Assembly: GCF_027214005.1 (NCBI RefSeq)
Contig: NZ_JAPWGY010000003.1
Span: 620,001 to 684,000 of the forward strand
DNA: 64,000 nt
Direction: 5' to 3'
Source: Kiloniella laminariae
Lineage (GTDB): Bacteria > Pseudomonadota > Alphaproteobacteria > Kiloniellales > Kiloniellaceae
Positions 3-11,520 of this stretch are shown one piece after another. The notes beneath the pieces were generated by a model that searched no databases, was not told the origin of the DNA, and saw only the letters and a program-made list of their open reading frames with translations. Numbering within the stretch: the stretch's first letter is position 1; each line of letters opens with the position of its first letter. The translations under genes and the position numbers were made by a program.

Positions 3-1466
3 GTTGGTCAAATTGCAGAACCAAAATCACTGGATCCGGCGGCGGTCACCGCGGTGAATGATTTCCGAATTCTGGTGAATATCTATGAAGGCCTGGTGCG
101 CTATAAGCCCGGTACATTGGAAGTGGCCCCGGCATTGGCTGAAAGCTGGGAAATCAGCGAAGATGGTACCGAATACACTTTTAGACTGCGCGAAGGTATC
201 AGTTTCCATGATGGCGCACCATTTAACGCAGAAGCGGTGAAGTTTAACTTTGACCGGATGTTGAATGAGGATCATCCCTATCACAAGACGGGCCCGTTCC
301 CGCTGGCGTTTTTCTTTTCTGCCGTGCAAAAAACCACTGCCGTTGATGCGCTGACTGTAAAGTTCAGCTTGAACGAGCCTTATGCGCCGTTCCTGTCAAA
401 TCTGGCGTATCCGACAGGTTTGCTGGTGTCTCCAGAAGCGGTGAAAGAACATGGCGAAGATGTTGGGCGTCACCCAACAGGCACAGGGCCGTTCAAATTT
501 GTTGAATGGATATCTAACGAGCGTGTGGTTGTGGACCGTAACGATGAGTATTGGGGGGAAGCCGCAGGGGTGAACGCCGTGGTGTTTCGTCCGATCACTG
601 ATGCCAACACCCGTGTAGCGGAAATGCTGGCCGGGGGAATCGATATGATGGTGGAAGTGCCGCCAACGGCTTTGTCCCAGTTTCAGAGTGATGAATTCAC
701 AATTAAAGAACAGGCGGGACCCCACGTCTGGTTTTTGATTTTGAACGCCAAGGAAGGCCCCTTTGCCGACAAGCGTGTACGTCAGGCAGCGAACTATGCG
801 ATCAATAAAGAAGCACTGGTGAATGATGTGCTGGAAGGCACTGCGGCTGTGGCTGCCGGGCCGACGCCCCCCGCATTTGCCTGGGCATACAATAAAGAAC
901 TGGCGCCCTATCCCTATGATCCGGAGAAAGCCAAAGCGCTTTTGGCTGAAGCGGGTGTGGAAGGTGCCGAGCTGACATTCTTTGTCACAGAAGGCGGATC
1001 AGGGATGCTTGATCCGGTATCCATGGGAACAGCTATTCAGGCAGATCTCGCCGCCGTGGGTCTTGATGTGAAAATTGAAACCTATGAGTGGAACACCTTC
1101 TTGGGTGAAGTGAACCCCGGACTTGAAGGCAAAGCCGATCTGGCCGAAATGGCCTGGATGACAAATGATCCGGATACGCTCCCCTATCTGGCACTACGCA
1201 CAGATGCCTGGCCTGAAAAGGGCGGGTTTAACTCCGGGTATTATTCCAATGTAAAAGTTGATGAACTGCTTGAGCAGGCGCGTACATCAACCAGCCAGGA
1301 TGAACGGGCAAAGCTCTATCGCGAGATGCAGAGCATTGTTCAAGAAGATGCACCCTGGGTTTTTGTGGCCAACTGGAAGCAAAATGCAGTGACCAATGAC
1401 CGGGTGAAAAGCTTTGATCTTGAACCCTCCTTCTTGCTTCACTTGCAGAATGTGACCAAGAATTAA
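3..1466 (+). CDS. ABC transporter substrate-binding protein, peptide/nickel/opine type (5' partial)
   Basis: Periplasmic solute-binding protein of the SBP_bac_5 (DppA/OppA-like) family, which delivers peptides, opines or similar solutes to an ABC importer. The reading frame is open from the first complete codon at position 3, and the residues there (EPKSLDPA, then IYEGLVRY) are the usual start of the mature domain. The signal peptide and start codon therefore lie outside the window. About 487 residues are present, close to the normal mature length. Two permease and two ATPase modules follow, so this is the recognition component of one transporter. The ligand cannot be read from the sequence; the GntR/FCD regulator at the end of the operon hints at an organic acid or amino-acid-derived substrate, which is inference. 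Confidence 0.93.
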   Translation, partial: VGQIAEPKSLDPAAVTAVNDFRILVNIYEGLVRYKPGTLEVAPALAESWEISEDGTEYTFRLREGISFHDGAPFNAEAVKFNFDRMLNEDHPYHKTGPFPLAFFFSAVQKTTAVDALTVKFSLNEPYAPFLSNLAYPTGLLVSPEAVKEHGEDVGRHPTGTGPFKFVEWISNERVVVDRNDEYWGEAAGVNAVVFRPITDANTRVAEMLAGGIDMMVEVPPTALSQFQSDEFTIKEQAGPHVWFLILNAKEGPFADKRVRQAANYAINKEALVNDVLEGTAAVAAGPTPPAFAWAYNKELAPYPYDPEKAKALLAEAGVEGAELTFFVTEGGSGMLDPVSMGTAIQADLAAVGLDVKIETYEWNTFLGEVNPGLEGKADLAEMAWMTNDPDTLPYLALRTDAWPEKGGFNSGYYSNVKVDELLEQARTSTSQDERAKLYREMQSIVQEDAPWVFVANWKQNAVTNDRVKSFDLEPSFLLHLQNVTKN

Positions 1467-1471
1467 ATGAT

Positions 1472-1506
1472 CGAACTGGCGGGTGGGGTGCCCGCCAGTT
1501 CGTTTT
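1472..1506 (+). terminator. Intra-operon hairpin after the binding-protein gene
   Basis: A 12-bp perfect stem (1472-1483 with 1491-1502) with a 7-nt loop is followed by TTTTC. It lies 5 nt after the stop codon and just before the ribosome binding site of the permease gene. Such hairpins commonly stabilise the binding-protein mRNA and reduce read-through, so that the binding protein is made in excess over the membrane parts. Confidence 0.7.
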
Positions 1507-1521
1507 CTCGGGGAGGAAAGA

Positions 1522-2469
1522 ATGGCTGCCTATATTCTGAAAAGACTGATTTCGGCCATTCCAGTTTTGTTCGGTATTACGCTGATTGTTTTTTTGATCA
1601 TGGCAATGATACCGGGTGACCCGGCAACCGCGATCCTGGGGGCCTATGCAACGCCGGAAAACGTGGCAAAAATCAACCGTGATCTTGGATTGGATGCACC
1701 GTTATTTCAGCGTTATTTTATTTGGCTGGGAAATCTGTTTACGGGTGATCTGGGCAGATCCTATTCGCTCAACCGGCCTGTTCTCCACGAAATTATAGAG
1801 CGGTTTCATGCCACGCTTGTTCTGGCGGGGAGCAGTTTTGTCTTGTGCGCGGTCTTTGGCATTCTGGCCGGGGTTGTTTCTGCTGCACGCCAGTATGGCT
1901 GGGCGGACAAAGCCATCACCTTCACGGTTTTGATCGGTATTTCCATTCCATCATTCTTTTTGGGGATGGTGATGATTCTGGTATTTGCCGTGCGCCTGCG
2001 CTGGTTTCCGGTGTCGGGTATGTATGCCATTTATGGCGGCGGGGATATTCTTGACTTGCTCAGGCATTTGATTATGCCGGCGCTGGCGCTGGCAGCCGTC
2101 GCCACAGGTGTTGTCGCGCGGATGTCGCGCTCTGCCATGTTGGAGGTGCTGCGGCAAGATTATATCCGGACCGCGCGGGCCAAAGGCGTAAAAGAACGCA
2201 AGGTGATTTTGGGCCATGCGCTGAGTTCAGCTATGGTGAACATCATTCCGGTCCTTGGCATCCAGGCCGGGTTCGTTTTGTCCGGTGCCGTCTATATCGA
2301 AATGGTCTTCCAGTGGCCTGGCATTGGCCGGATGCTGGTGGATGCGATTTTAAAACGCGACATCCTGCTGGTGCAAGGGGGGGTGGTGTTTGTCGCGGCC
2401 TGCTATGTCCTGTTCAATATTGTGGTTGATGTGGTGCAATCTCTGCTCGATCCAAGGATCAAATCATGA
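1522..2469 (+). CDS. ABC transporter permease, DppB/GsiC type
   Basis: Inner-membrane permease of the binding-protein-dependent peptide/nickel family, 315 residues. The N terminus (YILKRLISAIPVLFGI) is the classical first membrane helix of DppB-like proteins. The typical EAA-loop region appears as DYIRTARAKGV at about residues 212-222, where the ATPase docks. About six membrane segments are visible. The start at 1522 is chosen because GGAGG (1512-1516) sits at proper spacing; a start 39 nt upstream would fall inside the terminator hairpin. Its stop overlaps the next start as ATGA, so translation is probably coupled. Confidence 0.95.
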   Translation: MAAYILKRLISAIPVLFGITLIVFLIMAMIPGDPATAILGAYATPENVAKINRDLGLDAPLFQRYFIWLGNLFTGDLGRSYSLNRPVLHEIIERFHATLVLAGSSFVLCAVFGILAGVVSAARQYGWADKAITFTVLIGISIPSFFLGMVMILVFAVRLRWFPVSGMYAIYGGGDILDLLRHLIMPALALAAVATGVVARMSRSAMLEVLRQDYIRTARAKGVKERKVILGHALSSAMVNIIPVLGIQAGFVLSGAVYIEMVFQWPGIGRMLVDAILKRDILLVQGGVVFVAACYVLFNIVVDVVQSLLDPRIKS

Positions 2470-4349
2470 TCCAGTTCCTGAATCTGTTATTCCGGAATCG
2501 CCTGGCAGGACTTGGCGCGGGAATGCTTGTCCTGATCCTGCTGATCGCCCTGATAACACCGGTCTTGCCGCTGCCAGACCCCAATATTACCGCCACGGCT
2601 GACCGCTTTATGTCCCCGTTTTCAGAAGGACATCTTCTGGGGACCGACCATTTGGGACGCGATCTGCTGTCGCGGTTATTGTCGGGAACCCGCCTGTCGT
2701 TGGCAGTGGGGGTTGCAGCTGCACTGATCGCAACTGTGATTGGCTCCAGTATCGGCATTGTTGCGGGTTTTTTGGGCGGGCGCACGGACAACATCATCAT
2801 GCGCCTGGTCGATATGCTGATGGCATTTCCCTATATTTTGCTGGCACTGGCGATCGTGGCTGCGCTTGGGCCGGGGCTGAACAATGCACTCATTGCCGTC
2901 GCCGCTGTCAATGTACCGTTTTTTGCCCGCAATATACGGGGTGTAACGGTGGGTTTGGCCAATAAAGAATTTGTCGATGCTGCAAGGTTGAACGGCATGA
3001 GCAATGGGCAAATTATCTTTTCCGAGATTTTGCCGAATGTTCTGCCAGTGATCGTGATTGCCATGTCGACCACGATCGGCTGGATGATTCTGGAAACGGC
3101 CGGGCTTTCGTTCCTTGGGCTTGGCTCGCAACCACCACAGGCGGACCTGGGGTCTATGCTTGGTGAAGCACGGGCCGCCTTGATCACCTTTCCGCATACT
3201 TCTGTGGTGCCAGGTATCATGATTTTTTTAATCGTCATGTCGATCAATCTTCTGGGAGATGGGGTACGCGATGCTATTGATCCCAGATTGAAATCCGGTG
3301 CTTTGTCCCGGCCATTGCCTGCCACGATTGTGGAACGCAAAGAGGTACCGCCGACCCCAGACAAGGATTTGTTGTCTTTGCAGGAACTGCGCACGGAATT
3401 TCATGTGGGGGAGCGTGTTTATAAAGCGGTTGGCGGGGTCTCTCTAAAAGTAAACAAGGGTGAGTGCCTTGGTATTATTGGAGAATCCGGATCAGGAAAA
3501 TCTGTCACCGCCCTCTCGGTGATGGGTCTTGTAGCCTCGCCGCCGGGTAAAATTGTCGGTGGCACGGTCAGCTTTCAGGGCAAGGATCTGGTGGGGGCGT
3601 CCTATAATGAATTGCGATCTTTGCGCGGTGATCGTGTCGCCTATATTTTTCAGGATCCCTTATCGACCTTACACCCGCTTTATACGGTGGGTGATCAATT
3701 GATTGAGGCAATGCAGGCGCACCGCAGTGTGCCGCAGAAAGATGCGCAGGCACGGGCGGTTGAACTGTTGGAAGCTGTTCGTATCCCCAATGCAGCGCAA
3801 CGGGTGAAGAACTATCCCCACGAAATGTCCGGGGGGATGCGTCAACGTGTATCCATAGCGATGGCATTGGCGAATGAGCCGGATGTCATTATTGCTGATG
3901 AGCCGACAACAGCACTGGATGTAACGGTACAGGCACAAATTTTATCACTGCTGAATGATCTCCGCCGGGAGCGTGATCTGGCAATTGTCTTTATCACCCA
4001 TGATTTTGGCGTGGTCGCGCAATTATGTGACCGCGTTGCGGTGATGTATGCAGGCCAGATTGTGGAAGAGGGCCCGACAGCAGCGATATTGGATGATCCG
4101 CAGCATCCGTACACCAAAAGGCTGATGGCCTGTGTACCAGAACTGGGCGGTGGTAAACGCGAATTGCACGCCATTGCCGGTTTGCCGCCAGCGGTGGATC
4201 AATTGCCTCAGGGGTGCGCCTTTGCCGCCCGTTGTGAATTTGCCCAGGAGGTGTGCAGACAAGGCGGGATTATGCTGGAACCTAAGGGGGAGCGTGCTGT
4301 GCGTTGCCTGTTTCCCGTCAATGCAGATCAAATCGAGGTGACATTATGA
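2466..4349 (+). CDS. Fused ABC permease-ATPase (DppC-DppD type)
   Basis: A single 627-residue polypeptide joins the second permease of the importer to its first ATPase. Residues about 1-280 are a DppC-like permease with a large N-terminal helix, the GTDHLGRD motif and the EAA loop (EFVDAARLNGM). After a short linker, residues about 300-627 are a DppD-like ATPase: Walker A GESGSGKS near 339, signature MSGGMRQRV near 454, Walker B VIIADEP near 475, then the C-terminal oligopeptide-type extension with clustered cysteines. No stop or frameshift separates the halves. Such fusions are known in proteobacterial Dpp/Opp-like transporters. The gene overlaps its upstream and downstream neighbours by ATGA junctions. 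Confidence 0.95.
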   Translation: MIQFLNLLFRNRLAGLGAGMLVLILLIALITPVLPLPDPNITATADRFMSPFSEGHLLGTDHLGRDLLSRLLSGTRLSLAVGVAAALIATVIGSSIGIVAGFLGGRTDNIIMRLVDMLMAFPYILLALAIVAALGPGLNNALIAVAAVNVPFFARNIRGVTVGLANKEFVDAARLNGMSNGQIIFSEILPNVLPVIVIAMSTTIGWMILETAGLSFLGLGSQPPQADLGSMLGEARAALITFPHTSVVPGIMIFLIVMSINLLGDGVRDAIDPRLKSGALSRPLPATIVERKEVPPTPDKDLLSLQELRTEFHVGERVYKAVGGVSLKVNKGECLGIIGESGSGKSVTALSVMGLVASPPGKIVGGTVSFQGKDLVGASYNELRSLRGDRVAYIFQDPLSTLHPLYTVGDQLIEAMQAHRSVPQKDAQARAVELLEAVRIPNAAQRVKNYPHEMSGGMRQRVSIAMALANEPDVIIADEPTTALDVTVQAQILSLLNDLRRERDLAIVFITHDFGVVAQLCDRVAVMYAGQIVEEGPTAAILDDPQHPYTKRLMACVPELGGGKRELHAIAGLPPAVDQLPQGCAFAARCEFAQEVCRQGGIMLEPKGERAVRCLFPVNADQIEVTL

Positions 4350-5299
4350 ATGCGCTCGAAGTCAAAGATCTCACCAAAACCTTTGAAGTTGGTAAGACCT
4401 TGTTCAGTCGTGGATTGGGAGTGAAGGCGGTACGCCGTATGAGTTTTGAGGTTCGCGATGGCGAAACATTGGGCATAGTGGGCGAAAGCGGTTGCGGTAA
4501 ATCGACTTTGGCACGGATGCTGGTGGGATTGTTGCCGTCCACTGAAGGTGAAATCAAGATTGAGGGAAAAGTACAGGACAAAGCCTCTCCACGTGAATTT
4601 GGCCAAATGATCCAGTATGTCTTTCAGGACCCGATTTCGAGCCTTAACCCGCGTAAAACCATCCGCCAGATCATGGAAACACCGCTGAAGCGGTTACACG
4701 GTATGGGCAAGGCAGAGAGGGACAAGCGGATCAGCGAAATATTTGCTTCGGTGAATTTGCGCGAAGAGTTCCTGTCGCGCTATCCGCATGAATTTTCTGG
4801 TGGCCAAGCACAACGGATCGGTATTGCACGCGCCTTGGCAGCAGCGGCACGTATTTTGATTCTGGATGAACCTGTTTCAGCTCTTGATGTTTCAGTACAG
4901 GCACAGGTACTCAACCTGCTGGCTGATCTGAAGCTGAAATTTGGATTGACCTATTTGTTTATCAGTCATGATCTGGCAGTTGTAGAGGCGGTGAGTGACC
5001 GGGTGATGGTGCTTTATTTCGGGACCATTGTCGAAGTAGGCCCGGCCGATGCGATTTTTAAACAGGCCAAACATCCTTATACCAAGTTGCTGGCAAATAG
5101 CGCTCCCGTTGTCGGGCGGCCATTGGAAGCACCAAAACAAAAGGGGGATGAACTACCGGACCCGCTTAACCCTCCGTCGGGTTGTCCGTTTGCCAAGCGG
5201 TGTATATATGCTACTGAGATTTGTGAAACGATTGATCCGGCGCTAATGGAAATGGGAGAAGGCCACTTTGCCGCTTGTCACAACCCGATCCGAGGATGA
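4346..5299 (+). CDS. ABC transporter ATP-binding protein, DppF type
   Basis: Second ATPase of the importer, 317 residues. Walker A is GESGCGKS, the signature is FSGGQAQRI and Walker B is ILILDEP. The C terminus has the oligo_HPY-type tail with cysteines (SGCPFAKRC) usual in DppF/OppF proteins. The start at 4346 overlaps the previous stop as ATGA; a longer frame reaches upstream but lies inside the previous gene. Together with the three upstream genes it completes a full importer (binding protein, two permeases, two ATPases). Confidence 0.95.
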   Translation: MNALEVKDLTKTFEVGKTLFSRGLGVKAVRRMSFEVRDGETLGIVGESGCGKSTLARMLVGLLPSTEGEIKIEGKVQDKASPREFGQMIQYVFQDPISSLNPRKTIRQIMETPLKRLHGMGKAERDKRISEIFASVNLREEFLSRYPHEFSGGQAQRIGIARALAAAARILILDEPVSALDVSVQAQVLNLLADLKLKFGLTYLFISHDLAVVEAVSDRVMVLYFGTIVEVGPADAIFKQAKHPYTKLLANSAPVVGRPLEAPKQKGDELPDPLNPPSGCPFAKRCIYATEICETIDPALMEMGEGHFAACHNPIRG

Positions 5300-6026
5300 G
5301 CCACGGTTGAGCCGCCCGGTGCGTGTTGCAGAAGCCATTAAGAACTGGGTGGTGGATAAAGGGCTGAAGGCGGGTGATCGCCTGCCCAGTGAGCCGGAAA
5401 TGATCGAGCAATTTGGTATGGCCAAAAGCACTATTCGCGAAGCCATGCGGATACTGGAGGCTCAAGGGCTTGTCCGTACCCGCACAGGGCCGGGGGGAGG
5501 CAGCTTTGTTCATGAAGTGTCGACCCAACGGGCCCGGGCGTTGCTTGGAAATTATTTCTACTTCAAAGACCTGACAATCGCCGACATTTATGAGCTGCGA
5601 TGTACGCTGGAACCGCAATTGGCGGCTTCGCTTGCGGGAAAATTACCTGACGAAGTTCTGATCAAGCTGGAAAGTATTGTTGCGCGTTATCCAAAGCCTG
5701 CTTCATCCGCCGATGAAGAGCGAGAACAACATATTGCGTCTTTGCAGTTCCACGCCTTGCTTGCCAAACAATCCAAGAACAAATTGCTTGGTTTCCTGAT
5801 TGATTTCATGACGAATATGTTGGCTGACCTGACCGTCTATCGAAAGCTTTATAATCCGCCAAACGTGGAATTATGGCAAAGAGGGCGTGATTATCAGGTC
5901 CAGCTGATCAAGGCCCTTCGCGAAGGCTTGTCGGGCGAAGCCTACCAGATTATGGCTGATCACATGACAACGGCGCAGACGCTGATGTCATTACAAGAGG
6001 CGGAAATACAAAAGCGGTTTATCTGA
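5268..6026 (+). CDS. GntR-family regulator with FCD domain
   Basis: Transcription factor of the FadR/FCD branch of the GntR family, 252 residues. Residues about 14-85 form the winged helix-turn-helix (RLPSEPEMIEQFGMAKSTIR, then GPGGGSFV). The C-terminal helical FCD ligand-binding domain starts around residue 100, with the family-type YELRCTLEP opening. The start is a TTG at 5268 with GGAGAAGG just upstream (5254-5261), so the gene overlaps the ATPase gene by 32 nt; a TTG at 5307 is an alternative. Its position at the end of the transporter operon suggests it senses the transported solute or a breakdown product and controls this operon. Confidence 0.9.
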   Translation: MPLVTTRSEDEPRLSRPVRVAEAIKNWVVDKGLKAGDRLPSEPEMIEQFGMAKSTIREAMRILEAQGLVRTRTGPGGGSFVHEVSTQRARALLGNYFYFKDLTIADIYELRCTLEPQLAASLAGKLPDEVLIKLESIVARYPKPASSADEEREQHIASLQFHALLAKQSKNKLLGFLIDFMTNMLADLTVYRKLYNPPNVELWQRGRDYQVQLIKALREGLSGEAYQIMADHMTTAQTLMSLQEAEIQKRFI

Positions 6027-7926: not shown

Positions 7927-9015
7927 TCAGAAATCGATGACTACTTCGCCCAGTGGATTGGAACAACAGGCAAGGATATAACCGTCGTCAATCTGGTCCT
8001 GGGTAATCCCCCCGTTGTGAACCATGTGGATGTCACCAGAGACCTTCTTGACTTTACAGGTGCCACACACCCCGAACTGGCAGGCGCTGGGGATATGCAA
8101 GCCGGTTTTTTTGGCAGCTGTCAGAATAGTGTCGGACTCCTGGCAGGGAGTTTCTTTCTTTGAACGGGTGAAACTGACGCGGGAGGCAGCTTCAGCATCA
8201 ATGATCACATCATCATGATCGGGACGGTCTGATTCTTCTTTAATCGGCGAATCAAAACTTTCTTCATGATAGCGATCCATATCAAAGCCGGCAGCATTGA
8301 GAATATCCCTGACAGCCTGCATGAAGGGGGCAGGGCCACAGCAAAAGATTTCCCGTTCCTGATAGTCGGGAGAGATCAGCTCGAGCATCAGCTGGTTTAC
8401 CCGTCCGGTATAGCCGGTCCAGGCCCCGTAGGGATCTGGTTTCTCGCAGGCAAAGGCAACCTTGATGTCGTTGAGACGGGCACTCATGCTTTCCAGTTCC
8501 CGGCGGGCAATAATATCCGAGGGCGTACGGGCGCAATGAATGAAATGAACATCCGTGTGCAGTCCATAATCAAACAGCCAGCGGGTCATGGAAAGGGTTG
8601 GCGTGATACCAGCACCGCCGGAGATGAAAAGATACTTCTCGGCCATGTGATCGTGCAGGGTAAAAATCCCGGCAGGACCGTAAGCCTTGATCTGATCACC
8701 TTCTTTGAGGTTCTGGTGCAGCCAGTTAGAGACAAAGCCACCTTCGGTCGCTTTTACCGTGATGGAGATCGAGAGCGGCCGGGAGGGGCTGGAGGATAGT
8801 GTATAGGTTCGCAGAACCGGCTTGCCTTCAATTTCCAGTTCAATGGTGATGAACTGACCGGGAAGATAGCGGAACCAGCTGTTGTCCGTTGTCTGAAAAC
8901 AGAAGGTTTTAACATCGTGTGTGTCCTGGAGGATCATCACACATTCCAGCCTCTGGGAATGGCTATCCCAGGGCGTGGTTGTGTTTAAATCTCTGATTAC
9001 CTGTTTGACAGCCAT
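7927..9015 (-). CDS. gbcB: GbcB-like ferredoxin reductase, FAD/NAD(P) plus 2Fe-2S
   Basis: Electron-transfer partner of the Rieske oxygenase encoded just upstream, 362 residues. The flavin domain has LRTYTLSSSPSRP (FAD binding), the NAD(P)H domain has GGAGITPTLSM, and a C-terminal plant-type ferredoxin domain carries CQFGVCGTC with a fourth cysteine in ILACCSNP. This reductase-then-ferredoxin order is the type found in GbcB, the reductase of glycine betaine monooxygenase. The ATG at 9015 is preferred over a TTG at 9030. It is co-oriented with the oxygenase gene and separated by 91 nt holding a hairpin, so both are probably under the upstream cobalamin riboswitch. Other N-demethylase or carnitine/choline oxygenase reductases look similar. 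Confidence 0.88.
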   Translation of the reverse strand: MAVKQVIRDLNTTTPWDSHSQRLECVMILQDTHDVKTFCFQTTDNSWFRYLPGQFITIELEIEGKPVLRTYTLSSSPSRPLSISITVKATEGGFVSNWLHQNLKEGDQIKAYGPAGIFTLHDHMAEKYLFISGGAGITPTLSMTRWLFDYGLHTDVHFIHCARTPSDIIARRELESMSARLNDIKVAFACEKPDPYGAWTGYTGRVNQLMLELISPDYQEREIFCCGPAPFMQAVRDILNAAGFDMDRYHEESFDSPIKEESDRPDHDDVIIDAEAASRVSFTRSKKETPCQESDTILTAAKKTGLHIPSACQFGVCGTCKVKKVSGDIHMVHNGGITQDQIDDGYILACCSNPLGEVVIDF

Positions 9016-9064
9016 TATCTCAATTCCCAAATCGTCGTGGCCCTTATGGGCTTATTGTCAGTTG

Positions 9065-9092
9065 AAAGAGCGCAACTCGTGTTGCGCTCTTT
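9065..9092 (-). terminator. Hairpin between Rieske oxygenase and reductase genes
   Basis: A 12-bp perfect stem (9065-9076 with 9081-9092) with a TCGT-type loop sits between the two minus-strand genes. The T run on the minus strand is short, so partial termination or mRNA processing that lowers reductase expression is more likely than full termination. Confidence 0.55.
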
Positions 9093-9106
9093 TGTGTTGT
9101 TAGCGG

Positions 9107-10366
9107 TTATTGGCTGGCGGCTAGCTGAAACCTTGCAGGATCAAAAAGCTGTTTCAGCATTTCCGAGCTGTACCAGTTGATGAAGTTGATCACGCCAAAC
9201 TCGGCTTCCTGGGCATAGGGGCCGGGCTGGTAAGCACGGGAGTTGATACCAAGCTGGTTGTTTTCTGCCAGTTCCCGGTCCTGATGGTTTGTGGCATTCC
9301 AGACGGCGACCATCTTCTCGATGTCGTAGTCTTTGCCTTCAACCGCATCTTCGTGAACGATCCACTTGGTTGTGACCAGAGTTTCCTGTGGCCCGACCGG
9401 CATGACGCGGAAGACAATAGAATGGTCACCCATGAAGTGGTTCCAGGTATTGGGCAGATGCAAAAGGCGCATGGAACCCATATCCGGATCTTTCAGATCC
9501 CCCATCAGCTTCTGACAGGCAGGTGTGCCGTCCATGGTCATGGAGGTGGTACCGTTTGCCAGCGGCATGCGTACAGCGCGGTACTGGAGGTTATGCGGGG
9601 TCGACTCATGGGCAATGCCGAGCTGATCCCATTCCCGGGCCTTGCGGTCCACCAGCTGTTTGAATTCCGGGGTGGCTCTGGGGTCATCTGTGTTGTCGAA
9701 CTCCAGCAGGCTGTTCAGGAGTTCCGGATGAGACCCGTTGCAGTGGTAACATTCCCGGTTGTTTTCGATCACCAGCTTCCAGTTGGCTTTTTCACGAATG
9801 GTGATTTCATGAGCGATCTTGGCGCGATCCAGAGCGTGGGGCCGCAGGAAAGGTTCAACGGCCAGCTTGAAGCTGTCAAAAGCAGGCGGGTTTTCTGCAA
9901 GGCAGACGAATATCATGCCACCGGCAATGCCGATATTAGCTTTTTTCAGCGGGTAGTCGGCAGGCTTGAAGCCTTCCCCCATATTGCCGGCAAATAACAG
10001 ATTGCCATCAAGGTTATAGGTCCACTGATGATAGGGACAAACCAGTTTGGCTGTGCTGCCTTTTTCCGTCAGGCAGATTTTTGAACCACGATGGCGGCAG
10101 GTGTTGTAAATGGCATGGATCTCGTGATTGTCATCACGGACGATAACCAGCGGGTCGTCCCCAATAGAGAGTGTGAAGAAGTTGCCCGGCTTGGGGATGT
10201 CACAGACCAGGCCAGCAAAGATCCAGGATTTTCCAAACACGTGAGTCATATCGAGCTGGAAGAATTCCGGGTCATTGTAAAATTCACGGGGCAGGCTGTA
10301 ATTTTGTTTTTTGCTGCGAAGCAGATCAAACATCGTATCGTGGGCGGACATGCGCACATCTCTCAT
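9107..10366 (-). CDS. gbcA: GbcA-like Rieske monooxygenase oxygenase subunit
   Basis: Rieske non-heme iron oxygenase alpha subunit, 419 residues, closely resembling glycine betaine monooxygenase GbcA, which converts glycine betaine to dimethylglycine and formaldehyde. The Rieske 2Fe-2S ligands are in NTCRHRG and VCPYHQW (about residues 89-118). The mononuclear iron region is ENNRECYHCNGSHPEL, a motif characteristic of the GbcA group. The start at 10366 is chosen because AAGGTG lies 5 nt upstream; an ATG at 10351 is possible, and the frame extends further upstream but lacks a site. A cobalamin riboswitch precedes it. Stachydrine or carnitine demethylation are alternatives for the substrate. 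Confidence 0.87.
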   Translation of the reverse strand: MRDVRMSAHDTMFDLLRSKKQNYSLPREFYNDPEFFQLDMTHVFGKSWIFAGLVCDIPKPGNFFTLSIGDDPLVIVRDDNHEIHAIYNTCRHRGSKICLTEKGSTAKLVCPYHQWTYNLDGNLLFAGNMGEGFKPADYPLKKANIGIAGGMIFVCLAENPPAFDSFKLAVEPFLRPHALDRAKIAHEITIREKANWKLVIENNRECYHCNGSHPELLNSLLEFDNTDDPRATPEFKQLVDRKAREWDQLGIAHESTPHNLQYRAVRMPLANGTTSMTMDGTPACQKLMGDLKDPDMGSMRLLHLPNTWNHFMGDHSIVFRVMPVGPQETLVTTKWIVHEDAVEGKDYDIEKMVAVWNATNHQDRELAENNQLGINSRAYQPGPYAQEAEFGVINFINWYSSEMLKQLFDPARFQLAASQ

Positions 10367-10370
10367 TCGT

Positions 10371-10385
10371 GCACCTTGATGGTGC
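10371..10385 (-). promoter_or_regulatory. Hairpin sequestering the ribosome binding site of the Rieske gene
   Basis: On the minus strand GCACC, a five-base loop ATCAA, and GGTGC form a perfect stem. It contains the AAGGTG ribosome binding site of the ATG at 10366. It lies about 100 nt downstream of the cobalamin riboswitch and is a natural expression platform for translational repression. Confidence 0.6.
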
Positions 10386-10487
10386 GGTTGGGACTTGCAG
10401 CAGGAGACGGGACACGTTGACAGCAGAATGCTTTGGCGCAGACCAGTGTCAAATCGTTCCAATCGCCCACCGCGATTACCGACTTTT

Positions 10488-10694
10488 CTTCAGGCTGGTT
10501 TCCGGACTCGAGAGGAGGGTCTTGCGCCCTGATCCGCTTCCTTCCCAGAGATGATTCATCTCCAGTGGCTCTTGCGGATCTTGTCCTCTCCTACCGTTGC
10601 GGGGGCAGTGTCGGCATCGTGCGGGGAACGTTGCACACCGACTTCCCAATTATCCAGATGATCTCAACCGCTTGAAATGATCTGGCACCTGAAG
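10488..10694 (-). ncRNA. Cobalamin (B12) riboswitch
   Basis: Read on the minus strand, the 207 nt carry the family's conserved elements in order: AGGTGCC, GGGAA followed by CGGTG, CCCCCGCAACGGT, GCCACTGG, CTGGGAAGG and the B12-box variant GAGTCCGGAAACCAGCC. The closing stem P1 is a perfect 7-bp helix, CTTCAGG (10688-10694) with CCTGAAG (10488-10494). It faces the Rieske oxygenase gene 120 nt downstream. A further small hairpin (10461-10477, 6-bp stem) sits between the aptamer and the ribosome-binding-site hairpin. In this family ligand binding normally turns expression off. Confidence 0.93.
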
Positions 10695-10863
10695 GAGTTA
10701 TCGTTTTGTTGTTACCTGCTAGAATTTATGAGATTCCCTTGAGGGTTCATCTTGAAAAACGACGGGCTGCCCAGCGTTTGCGACAAGGTCTGTTATTGCT
10801 GTCTTCAAAGGTCGTAAGCGTGGTAAAACAGGTCGCGGTTATCCATTGTTCAGGAATTTTTTT

Positions 10864-11520
10864 ATGAAATCTCGACACCTGCCGATCTCGGCACAGCTGC
10901 AGGATTATCTGATTGAGCAGGGTGTCCGTGAAGATGATCTCTTGCGGCGCTTGCGGGCGGAAACACTGGCAATGAGATTCGGCCATATGCAGGTCAGCCC
11001 GGAACAGGGACAGTTTCTTGCTTTTCTGATCAAGATTCTGAGAGTCAGGACTGTCCTGGAAATCGGCGTTTTTACCGGCTACAGCAGCCTTTGCATGGCT
11101 CGGGCTCTGGATGATGACGGGTCGTTACTTGGTCTGGATAACCAGAAGCGCTTTACCGACATCGCCCAGCAATACTGGGCAGAAGCCGGGCAGGAGGAGA
11201 AAATTGAACTCAGGCTTTGCGACGCCCTTGCCGAGTTGGACCGATTACAGAAAAAAGGCGCGACATTCGACATGATTTTTCTGGATGCGGACAAGGAAAG
11301 GTATCCATCCTATTACGATGCCTGTCTGGAAGTTCTCAATCCGGGGGGATTGTTGGTCATTGATAATGTGCTCTGGTATGGGCATGTTGCCAATGCAACA
11401 ACGACAGAACCGATCACCTGTGCCATCCAGCAACTTAATCAGACAATTGTGTCAGACAGCCGTGTTGAAATGGTGATGTTACCCTTTGCCGATGGTATGA
11501 CACTGGTGCGCAAGCCCTGA
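10864..11520 (+). CDS. O-methyltransferase, class I SAM-dependent (CCoAOMT type)
   Basis: 218 residues, typical for the small O-methyltransferase_3 family related to catechol and caffeoyl-CoA O-methyltransferases. The SAM-binding motif EIGVFTGYSSLCMA is near residue 61 and the metal/acceptor motif IFLDADKERYPSYYD near residue 136, followed by GGLLVIDNVLW. The ATG at 10864 is preferred; a TTG at 10846 in the same frame is possible. The gene diverges from the riboswitch-controlled Rieske operon. The acceptor substrate is not readable; many bacterial members have no known substrate. Confidence 0.88.
   Translation: MKSRHLPISAQLQDYLIEQGVREDDLLRRLRAETLAMRFGHMQVSPEQGQFLAFLIKILRVRTVLEIGVFTGYSSLCMARALDDDGSLLGLDNQKRFTDIAQQYWAEAGQEEKIELRLCDALAELDRLQKKGATFDMIFLDADKERYPSYYDACLEVLNPGGLLVIDNVLWYGHVANATTTEPITCAIQQLNQTIVSDSRVEMVMLPFADGMTLVRKP

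Follow-up and report, generated by a model that had tools for sequence, protein, structure and literature searches.

Why should the genes for an apparently oxygen-dependent, cobalamin-free demethylase lie behind an RNA element of the kind that senses cobalamin (vitamin B12)? The question is raised by a locus of the alphaproteobacterium Kiloniella laminariae (order Kiloniellales), contained in the window analysed here, a stretch of 64,000 nucleotides (nt) that spans positions 620,001 to 684,000 of contig NZ_JAPWGY010000003.1. Within the window a cobalamin riboswitch faces gbcA and gbcB, which code for the oxygenase and reductase subunits of a Rieske system of the glycine betaine monooxygenase type. 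We propose, with a probability of about 0.73, that in the gbcAB leader this element senses cobalamin and acts as an OFF switch, and that B12-free GbcAB replaces a B12-dependent MttB/MtgC route when B12 is scarce. The observation itself is confirmed, and comparative genomics supports its interpretation.

The element is confirmed as a cobalamin riboswitch. It matches the Rfam family RF00174 over its full length (cmscan: model positions 1 to 189, 100.1 bits, E 7.5e-24, threshold 31.5) and is the sole Rfam match over gathering threshold within the window. A preceding reading of the letters alone, hereafter the sequence-only reading, had drawn a complete B12 riboswitch at 10488-10694 on the minus strand and proposed the Infernal Cobalamin model as a check; the score bears it out, both strands of the 7-bp P1 stem are there (CUUCAGG/CCUGAAG), and the Rfam match is 25 nt longer. 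The B12 box follows a pattern, NCCA[C/U]UG, that is common to all 29 loci compared, and the contact between its loop, L5, and a second loop, L13, is the regulatory kissing interaction known for this riboswitch class (PMC9600662).

Downstream of the element, at a distance of 109 nt, begins the Rieske oxygenase gene, whose product scores 661.1 bits against the GbcA model NF058607, just below the curated cut-off of 670, and 107.7 bits against the next family. The reductase reaches 445.8 bits against the GbcB model NF058606 (cut-off 500), its start at 9015 being set by a relative (L111). Pfam domains and best NCBIfam matches, GbcA and GbcB, agree with the earlier assignment of a Rieske oxygenase and its reductase behind the riboswitch. 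The Rieske ligands C90/H92 and C110/H113 (C-x-H, C-x2-H) are invariant in ten aligned rows, as are C206/C209, which form a Cys-x-x-Cys beside the iron ligand as in group V (PMC10952381).

The linkage of riboswitch and gene, which the sequence-only reading had suggested seeking in relatives, recurs throughout the order. A close homologue (E<=1e-80) is present in 11 of 61 genomes, K. laminariae included, and cmscan places RF00174 just upstream of the GbcA/Stc2-type gene at all 11 loci. Since five of these 11 homologues are only 45-49% identical to the window protein, the association is not due to chance. In the class, order included, the riboswitch is found in 28 of the 41 genomes examined that carry a GbcA/Stc2-type gene. 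Among 386 class genomes, 11 further loci of at least 584 bits were examined; seven have the riboswitch (L124, L126-L130, L132), and it was not found at the other four (L125, L131, L133, L134), nor by cmscan at 17 more distant Rieske loci (L135-L151, at most 502 bits). A survey of 397 phylum genomes detected it in ten more class members, not in nine others, and not in 24 genomes from outside the class, most of which were covered by motif scan (for 19 of them the motif scan alone was used, L155 and L173 were run through cmscan as well, and for the remaining three a stretch of 0.9 kb was put to cmscan). Throughout, absence refers to the 0.7-2.6 kb or so upstream of the gene. Of 42 elements verified by cmscan, the motif scan recovers 41.

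When the 80 best-matching named loci for the window protein were scanned for the motifs, 78 were negative (at L098 just 351 nt of upstream sequence were available) and one, from the betaproteobacterium Rhodoferax lacus (L091, Comamonadaceae), was positive, with a riboswitch of 110.7 bits; at L063 a single chance match lies downstream of the Rieske gene. No riboswitch was found by cmscan at 20 loci of Gammaproteobacteria. Plasmids carry it as well: four of 11 named regions, taken from 140 matching records, hold the element (Sinorhizobium meliloti pSymB twice, Phaeobacter gallaeciensis DSM 26640 and Shinella sp. PSBB067), and it is missing from seven (two of Paracoccus, and one each of Ancylobacter, Cereibacter, Agrobacterium, Roseivivax and Rhizobium sp. 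CB3090). Second Rieske copies in four genomes (G707, G727, G768, G820) showed no riboswitch and were not counted as extra genomes. Mapped on a tree of the proteins, the riboswitch label changes at least six times on well-supported branches, so that the element must have been gained or lost repeatedly; a second tree, in which two PDB rows of unknown status were scored as lacking the riboswitch, gives eight changes.

A riboswitch that puts the enzyme in place of a B12-dependent demethylase is expected in genomes that have that demethylase. The MttB family (PF06253) was therefore searched in 99 genomes that carry a GbcA/Stc2-type gene and whose riboswitch status had been examined. All 29 riboswitch-bearing genomes contain it, as do six of the 70 riboswitch-free ones (Fisher p 2e-19); the corresponding numbers within the class are 28 of 28 and four of 13 (p 2e-6) and, counted by genus within the class, 17 of 17 and three of nine (p 4e-4). 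MtgC follows the same pattern. With the protein of K. laminariae as query, 52 of the 99 genomes were searched: a stand-alone homologue occurs in all 29 riboswitch genomes (212-497 bits, the lowest value being a partial match of 120 residues) and in six of the 23 riboswitch-free genomes tested, exactly the six that possess MttB. In the other 17, the query matched at 97-109 bits inside open reading frames (ORFs) of 899-1287 amino acids (aa), as expected of MetH (14 genomes), or found nothing (three). A single family, f173, which we judge to be Rhizobiaceae-like by its grouping with S. meliloti and Shinella in the tree, reproduces the pattern: three genomes of one genus (g300) are devoid of MttB, MtgC and riboswitch, and eight of three other genera (g302, g322, g330) have all of them.

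The count of 99 omits class genomes with a best Rieske match of at most 502 bits and the eleven plasmid regions; eight of the omitted distant-match genomes were searched for MttB, which is present in two (G315, G112) and lacking in six. MttB was searched in 33 of the 79 closest named loci other than L091, where riboswitch absence is based on cmscan at gathering threshold for 20, on cmscan at E<=0.1 for L034 and on the motif scan only for 12. The co-occurrence speaks for the earlier suggestion of a B12-independent substitute for an MttB/MtgB-like demethylase, in which repression by B12 and a betaine substrate are presumed.

What the sequences show is the riboswitch, the gene family, their conservation and the co-occurrence with MttB and MtgC; ligand binding, the direction of control, the exact substrate and the physiological reason are inferred. 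As a rule, riboswitches of this class turn expression off when cobalamin is bound. Ample cobalamin would bind the aptamer, the L5-L13 kissing loop would form, and gbcAB expression would drop; under these conditions betaine would be demethylated via B12-dependent MttB/MtgC, and its methyl group would pass to methyl-tetrahydrofolate (methyl-THF) and on to methionine synthesis. When cobalamin is scarce, the leader would stay open and GbcAB would be made, a B12-free system that would use O2 and reduced nicotinamide adenine dinucleotide (NADH) to convert betaine to dimethylglycine and formaldehyde. Betaine would thus stay usable at low B12, and the scarce cobalamin and MtgC would be spared for a split methionine synthase, which would share MtgC. 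Such sharing has a precedent in Ruegeria pomeroyi, where MtgC and MtgD are reported to take part in methionine synthesis as well as in the demethylation of betaine (PMC12478193). Synthesis of methionine from betaine by Bmt could complete the B12-free mode, as Phaeobacter inhibens Bmt carries out this reaction in vitro without cobalamin (PMC12366255).

Several observations, in the counts, the gene set and the leader RNA, weigh against this reading. Related genomes are not independent, and the genus-level count corrects for kinship just partly; moreover, 57 of the 70 riboswitch-free genomes come from outside the class. Six genomes (G160, G098, G750, G778, G547, G447) possess MttB and MtgC, but a riboswitch was not found at their Rieske gene. 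Control may have passed to other regulators there, since in one of them (G098, locus L134) a divergent LysR-like gene lies upstream. In K. laminariae MtgD was not located: the single PF00809 protein is FolP, and as a candidate for MtgD it was discarded for being FolP-like and, as read from the sequence, lying beside glmM- and ftsH-like genes. No MetE was found either, because the genome has no PF01717 match; in a cell that lacks MetE, gbcAB would not by itself relieve B12 starvation, unless Bmt forms methionine from betaine. As for the leader, a search of 10300-10860 yielded no intrinsic terminator. The P13-like hairpin, which would provide L13, is not formed in the fold of 10355-10480 or of the whole leader, where a longer alternative stem appears instead. 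Finally, the gbcA start lies about 95 nt past P13, and classical occlusion of the Shine-Dalgarno sequence by this hairpin is therefore unlikely.

The GGUGG loop of the P13-like hairpin is complementary to CCAC of the B12 box, and a hairpin with a G-rich loop follows P1 in 29 loci compared, the GGCGG loops of some relatives pairing more weakly with the B12 box. Paired cells number 167 of 174, against a mean of 153 and a maximum of 159 after shuffling the 3' strands among loci, a count that is flattering because the hairpin was picked by its pairing score (at L119 and L120 the score picked another hairpin than the one seen by eye). When the fold takes in the following 100 nt, or the whole leader, the P13 sequence pairs with C-rich sequence further downstream (z -1.58 and -1.89), and this stem might represent the ligand-free form. 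Control may possibly be exerted through Rho-dependent termination or through coupling to a leader ORF, the latter as described for ppe2 of M. tuberculosis (PMC11260477).

In the window, a UUG 4 nt past the GGUGG loop opens a stop-free frame into gbcA (10462-10366, minus strand), and at the same position relatives have short leader ORFs of varying length and frame. A conserved leader peptide was considered, as starts follow P13 in many loci, and is not claimed because even members of the genus differ in its length, frame and sequence; the comparison included six loci without a readable gbcA start and one (L114) with a false one. A second hairpin, just 5' of the gbcA start codon (Table 1), was likewise dismissed as a common translation-blocking platform: by eye it recurs in the closest relative (G042) and is absent in four other genus members, and is thus limited to the window and its nearest relative.

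Table 1. Features of the gbcAB locus; positions refer to the window.
Feature	Position	Strand	Evidence and remarks
gbcB, reductase subunit (FAD/NAD/2Fe-2S); ORF open to TTG at 9030	7927..9015	-	NCBIfam NF058606; FAD_binding_6, NAD_binding_1, Fer2
gbcA, Rieske oxygenase subunit, glycine betaine monooxygenase type; ATG at 10366 or 10351	9107..10366	-	NCBIfam NF058607; Pfam Rieske and Ring_hydroxyl_A
Hairpin GCACC-AUCAA-GGUGC, just 5' of gbcA ATG, over Shine-Dalgarno-like AAGGUG; candidate translation control	10371..10385	-	Fold of 10360-10400, -8.3 kcal/mol, z -1.41
P13-like hairpin, loop GGUGG (L13), directly after P1	10461..10477	-	Folds alone: -8.2 kcal/mol, z -2.45
Cobalamin riboswitch aptamer, RF00174 full length	10476..10707	-	cmscan; 28 other genomes surveyed have it upstream of their homologous gene
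B12 box GCCACUG, L5 side of L5-L13 kissing loop	10563..10569	-	Sequence and Rfam alignment

The neighbourhood of the locus comprises a divergent gene of the O-methyltransferase family (10846-11520, plus strand; Methyltransf_3), which lies beside gbcA in six genus members (L110-L115), and, at 54-6026 on the plus strand, an ABC transporter operon of the oligopeptide type with a GntR/FCD regulator after it.

Which betaine the enzyme uses bears on a first alternative, namely that the same switch logic applies to proline betaine or another quaternary amine and that an MtpB-like rather than an MtgB-like MttB protein is replaced. The window protein falls into a 13-row clade with sequences of Pseudomonas and Chromohalobacter (support 99/95), genera with characterised GbcA-type enzymes (PMC12478193), and the stachydrine demethylase Stc2 (3vca) stands in another clade. 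Just seven of the 22 riboswitch-linked tree rows belong to the clade of the window protein; the other 15 are found in the sister clade, whose 24 rows include Stc2 and 3n0q. This distribution would fit another substrate, as would the often several MttB paralogues per genome and the score of the window protein, 9 bits below the GbcA cut-off. Eight riboswitch-linked relatives attain 498-655 bits to the GbcA model, below the same cut-off, and two riboswitch-free proteins of Gammaproteobacteria 795-819 bits. The grouping of the window protein with Pseudomonas and Chromohalobacter speaks against another substrate, and so does the comparison of 661 bits to the GbcA model with 404 bits to Stc2 by phmmer, which are different kinds of score. 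On balance we consider another substrate unlikely for the K. laminariae enzyme.

The earlier description as a GbcAB-like N-demethylase accordingly holds for the window protein, which groups with GbcA, and may be too narrow for the riboswitch-linked set, for which "betaine demethylase" is the safer name given the 15 rows in the Stc2 clade. The S. meliloti pSymB protein was examined as a candidate for Stc2 itself and rejected (508 bits, many alignment differences); chromosomal riboswitches of S. meliloti are listed in PMC2573895, in the consulted part of which pSymB is not covered.

The proposed replacement of an MttB/MtgC route presupposes a B12-dependent counterpart, and the genome of K. laminariae, for which the sequence-only reading had advised a search for mttB, holds four MttB-family genes. 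The one on contig C2 has 4yyc as its closest PDB entry (831 bits), followed by 2qne and 9yce (423 bits each; 9yce is named glycine betaine methyltransferase), and shares the contig with an OpuAC-type ABC transporter, a BetI-like regulator, an aldehyde dehydrogenase and MtgE/Bmt; another, on contig C7, lies near soxBA. The MtgC-like protein stands alone (230 aa), beside DUF1638 and a weak MTHFR match, and scores 197.9 bits against NF047996 (cut-off 370). MtgE/Bmt matches the betaine-homocysteine S-methyltransferase model NF005718 (490 bits, cut-off 338). A human-type BHMT was excluded, the protein reaching 161 bits to MetH and 60 to BHMT among solved structures, and PMC12478193 reads such BHMT-named proteins as MtgE; the protein may still use betaine directly. 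Of the two further PF02574 proteins, the one compared is a weak BHMT match (30 bits); the other lies at C33:10213. No full-length MetH was found, since the other PF02310 proteins are ORFs of only 685 and 741 aa. By sequence, this set resembles the MtgBCDE system of PMC12478193, MtgD aside.

A whole-genome search revealed seven cobalamin riboswitches, the window element included. Of the other six, one is located at a CbiM/Q/O cobalt-transport operon, one at a B12-type ABC transporter and one at a BluB-like member of the nitroreductase family. The remaining three are at a DUF4198 protein, at a 113-aa ORF without Pfam match and at two adjoining genes that were read as CbtBA without a model hit. 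Two of the six are divergent and flank a gene read from the sequence as TetR-like (L009; contig C6, 8035-8256, minus strand, and 9015-9224, plus strand), one facing the CbiM/Q/O operon and the other the DUF4198 protein. The element at the 113-aa ORF, which is followed by a MATE-type transporter lookalike, is the best-scoring of the genome (118.3 bits; contig C22, 886587-886788, plus strand; L008, 4588-4789).

The company of riboswitches at CbiM/Q/O, the BluB-like protein and the B12-type transporter lends some credit to a second alternative, by which low B12 would open gbcAB for the sake of cobalamin synthesis, betaine yielding glycine (for 5-aminolevulinate) and one-carbon units for the corrin ring; industrial strains are said to give more B12 when fed betaine. 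Such precursor supply does not predict that the riboswitch goes with MttB and with MtgC as observed, and we regard it as improbable.

The elements on the side of the Rieske gene bear a signature of their own. The sequence GGAAACCAGCC occurs together with GCAACGG in all 29 gene-side elements compared and also in the four plasmid elements; GGAAACCAGCC was found neither in the six other cobalamin riboswitches of K. laminariae nor in the divergent second elements of three loci (L117, L127, L185). On the Rfam alignment, the difference between CCA/UGG and CCU/AGG was read as a compensated pair. These second elements (L117, 3219-3423; L127, 3155-3365; L185, 657-850; all plus strand) lie back to back with the one at the Rieske gene, and the divergent gene of L117 looks like a BtuF-type binding protein.

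That the riboswitch came in with an adjacent B12 transporter and has remained at gbcAB without an adaptive role in control, as the three back-to-back pairs might suggest, is very improbable in view of the signature, which the divergent elements and those elsewhere in the genome lack, of the retention of the element at 45% protein identity and of its being found in no genome without MttB. Returning to regulated replacement, the idea can be widened: we give even odds to a dedicated lineage of cobalamin riboswitches with its own signature, kept by or regained at the Rieske betaine demethylases of those Alphaproteobacteria, and of one betaproteobacterium or more, in which the MttB/MtgC route exists, with B12 status deciding the fate of the methyl group.

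If replacement of MttB/MtgC by GbcAB holds true, a catabolic, oxygen-dependent enzyme would join the B12-free substitutes under control of B12 riboswitches. B12 status would set the fate of betaine methyl groups, either methyl-THF and methionine or, at the cost of O2 and NADH, formaldehyde, and B12 supply would steer the turnover of a major osmolyte. The pairing of riboswitch and gene predicts a B12-dependent choice of the demethylation route, and the plasmids of S. meliloti and Phaeobacter gallaeciensis, which carry the same riboswitch and gene type, make this prediction testable.

The literature searched (titles, abstracts and selected passages, with few subscription papers) contained no cobalamin riboswitch on a Rieske or betaine demethylase, in keeping with the sequence-only reading, which knew of no described B12-controlled Rieske betaine demethylase. 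Isozymes of B12-dependent enzymes are named as a class of riboswitch targets (PMC2211319, PMC3766115), and the words betaine and dioxygenase are absent from the main texts of both papers.

Among known systems, the closest relatives of the enzyme are GbcAB/BmoAB of Pseudomonas and Chromohalobacter, likewise two-subunit Rieske systems, of the same clade (52-60% identity to the best 80 named loci); they differ in that the riboswitch was detected by cmscan at none of the 20 Gammaproteobacteria loci. Stc2 has another substrate and scores 404 bits to the window protein, yet its clade, too, includes riboswitch-linked members. The proposed counterpart is MtgBCDE, which combines a split methionine synthase with the B12-dependent betaine route of aerobic bacteria described in 2025 (PMC12478193), to which the four MttB-family genes, the MtgC-like protein and MtgE/Bmt of K. 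laminariae correspond; in the consulted passages of that paper GbcAB and MtgBCD figure as alternative pathways, and a link between GbcAB and a B12 riboswitch is not made, the word riboswitch appearing once, in the title of a reference. The regulatory logic is most akin to that of metE and other isozyme riboswitches, where RF00174 likewise precedes a B12-free enzyme in genomes that also hold the B12-dependent counterpart. In contrast to these, the target here is a catabolic, O2-dependent Rieske demethylase rather than a methionine synthase or ribonucleotide reductase, and the methyl group meets a different fate on each of the two betaine routes, becoming formaldehyde on one and methyl-THF on the other.
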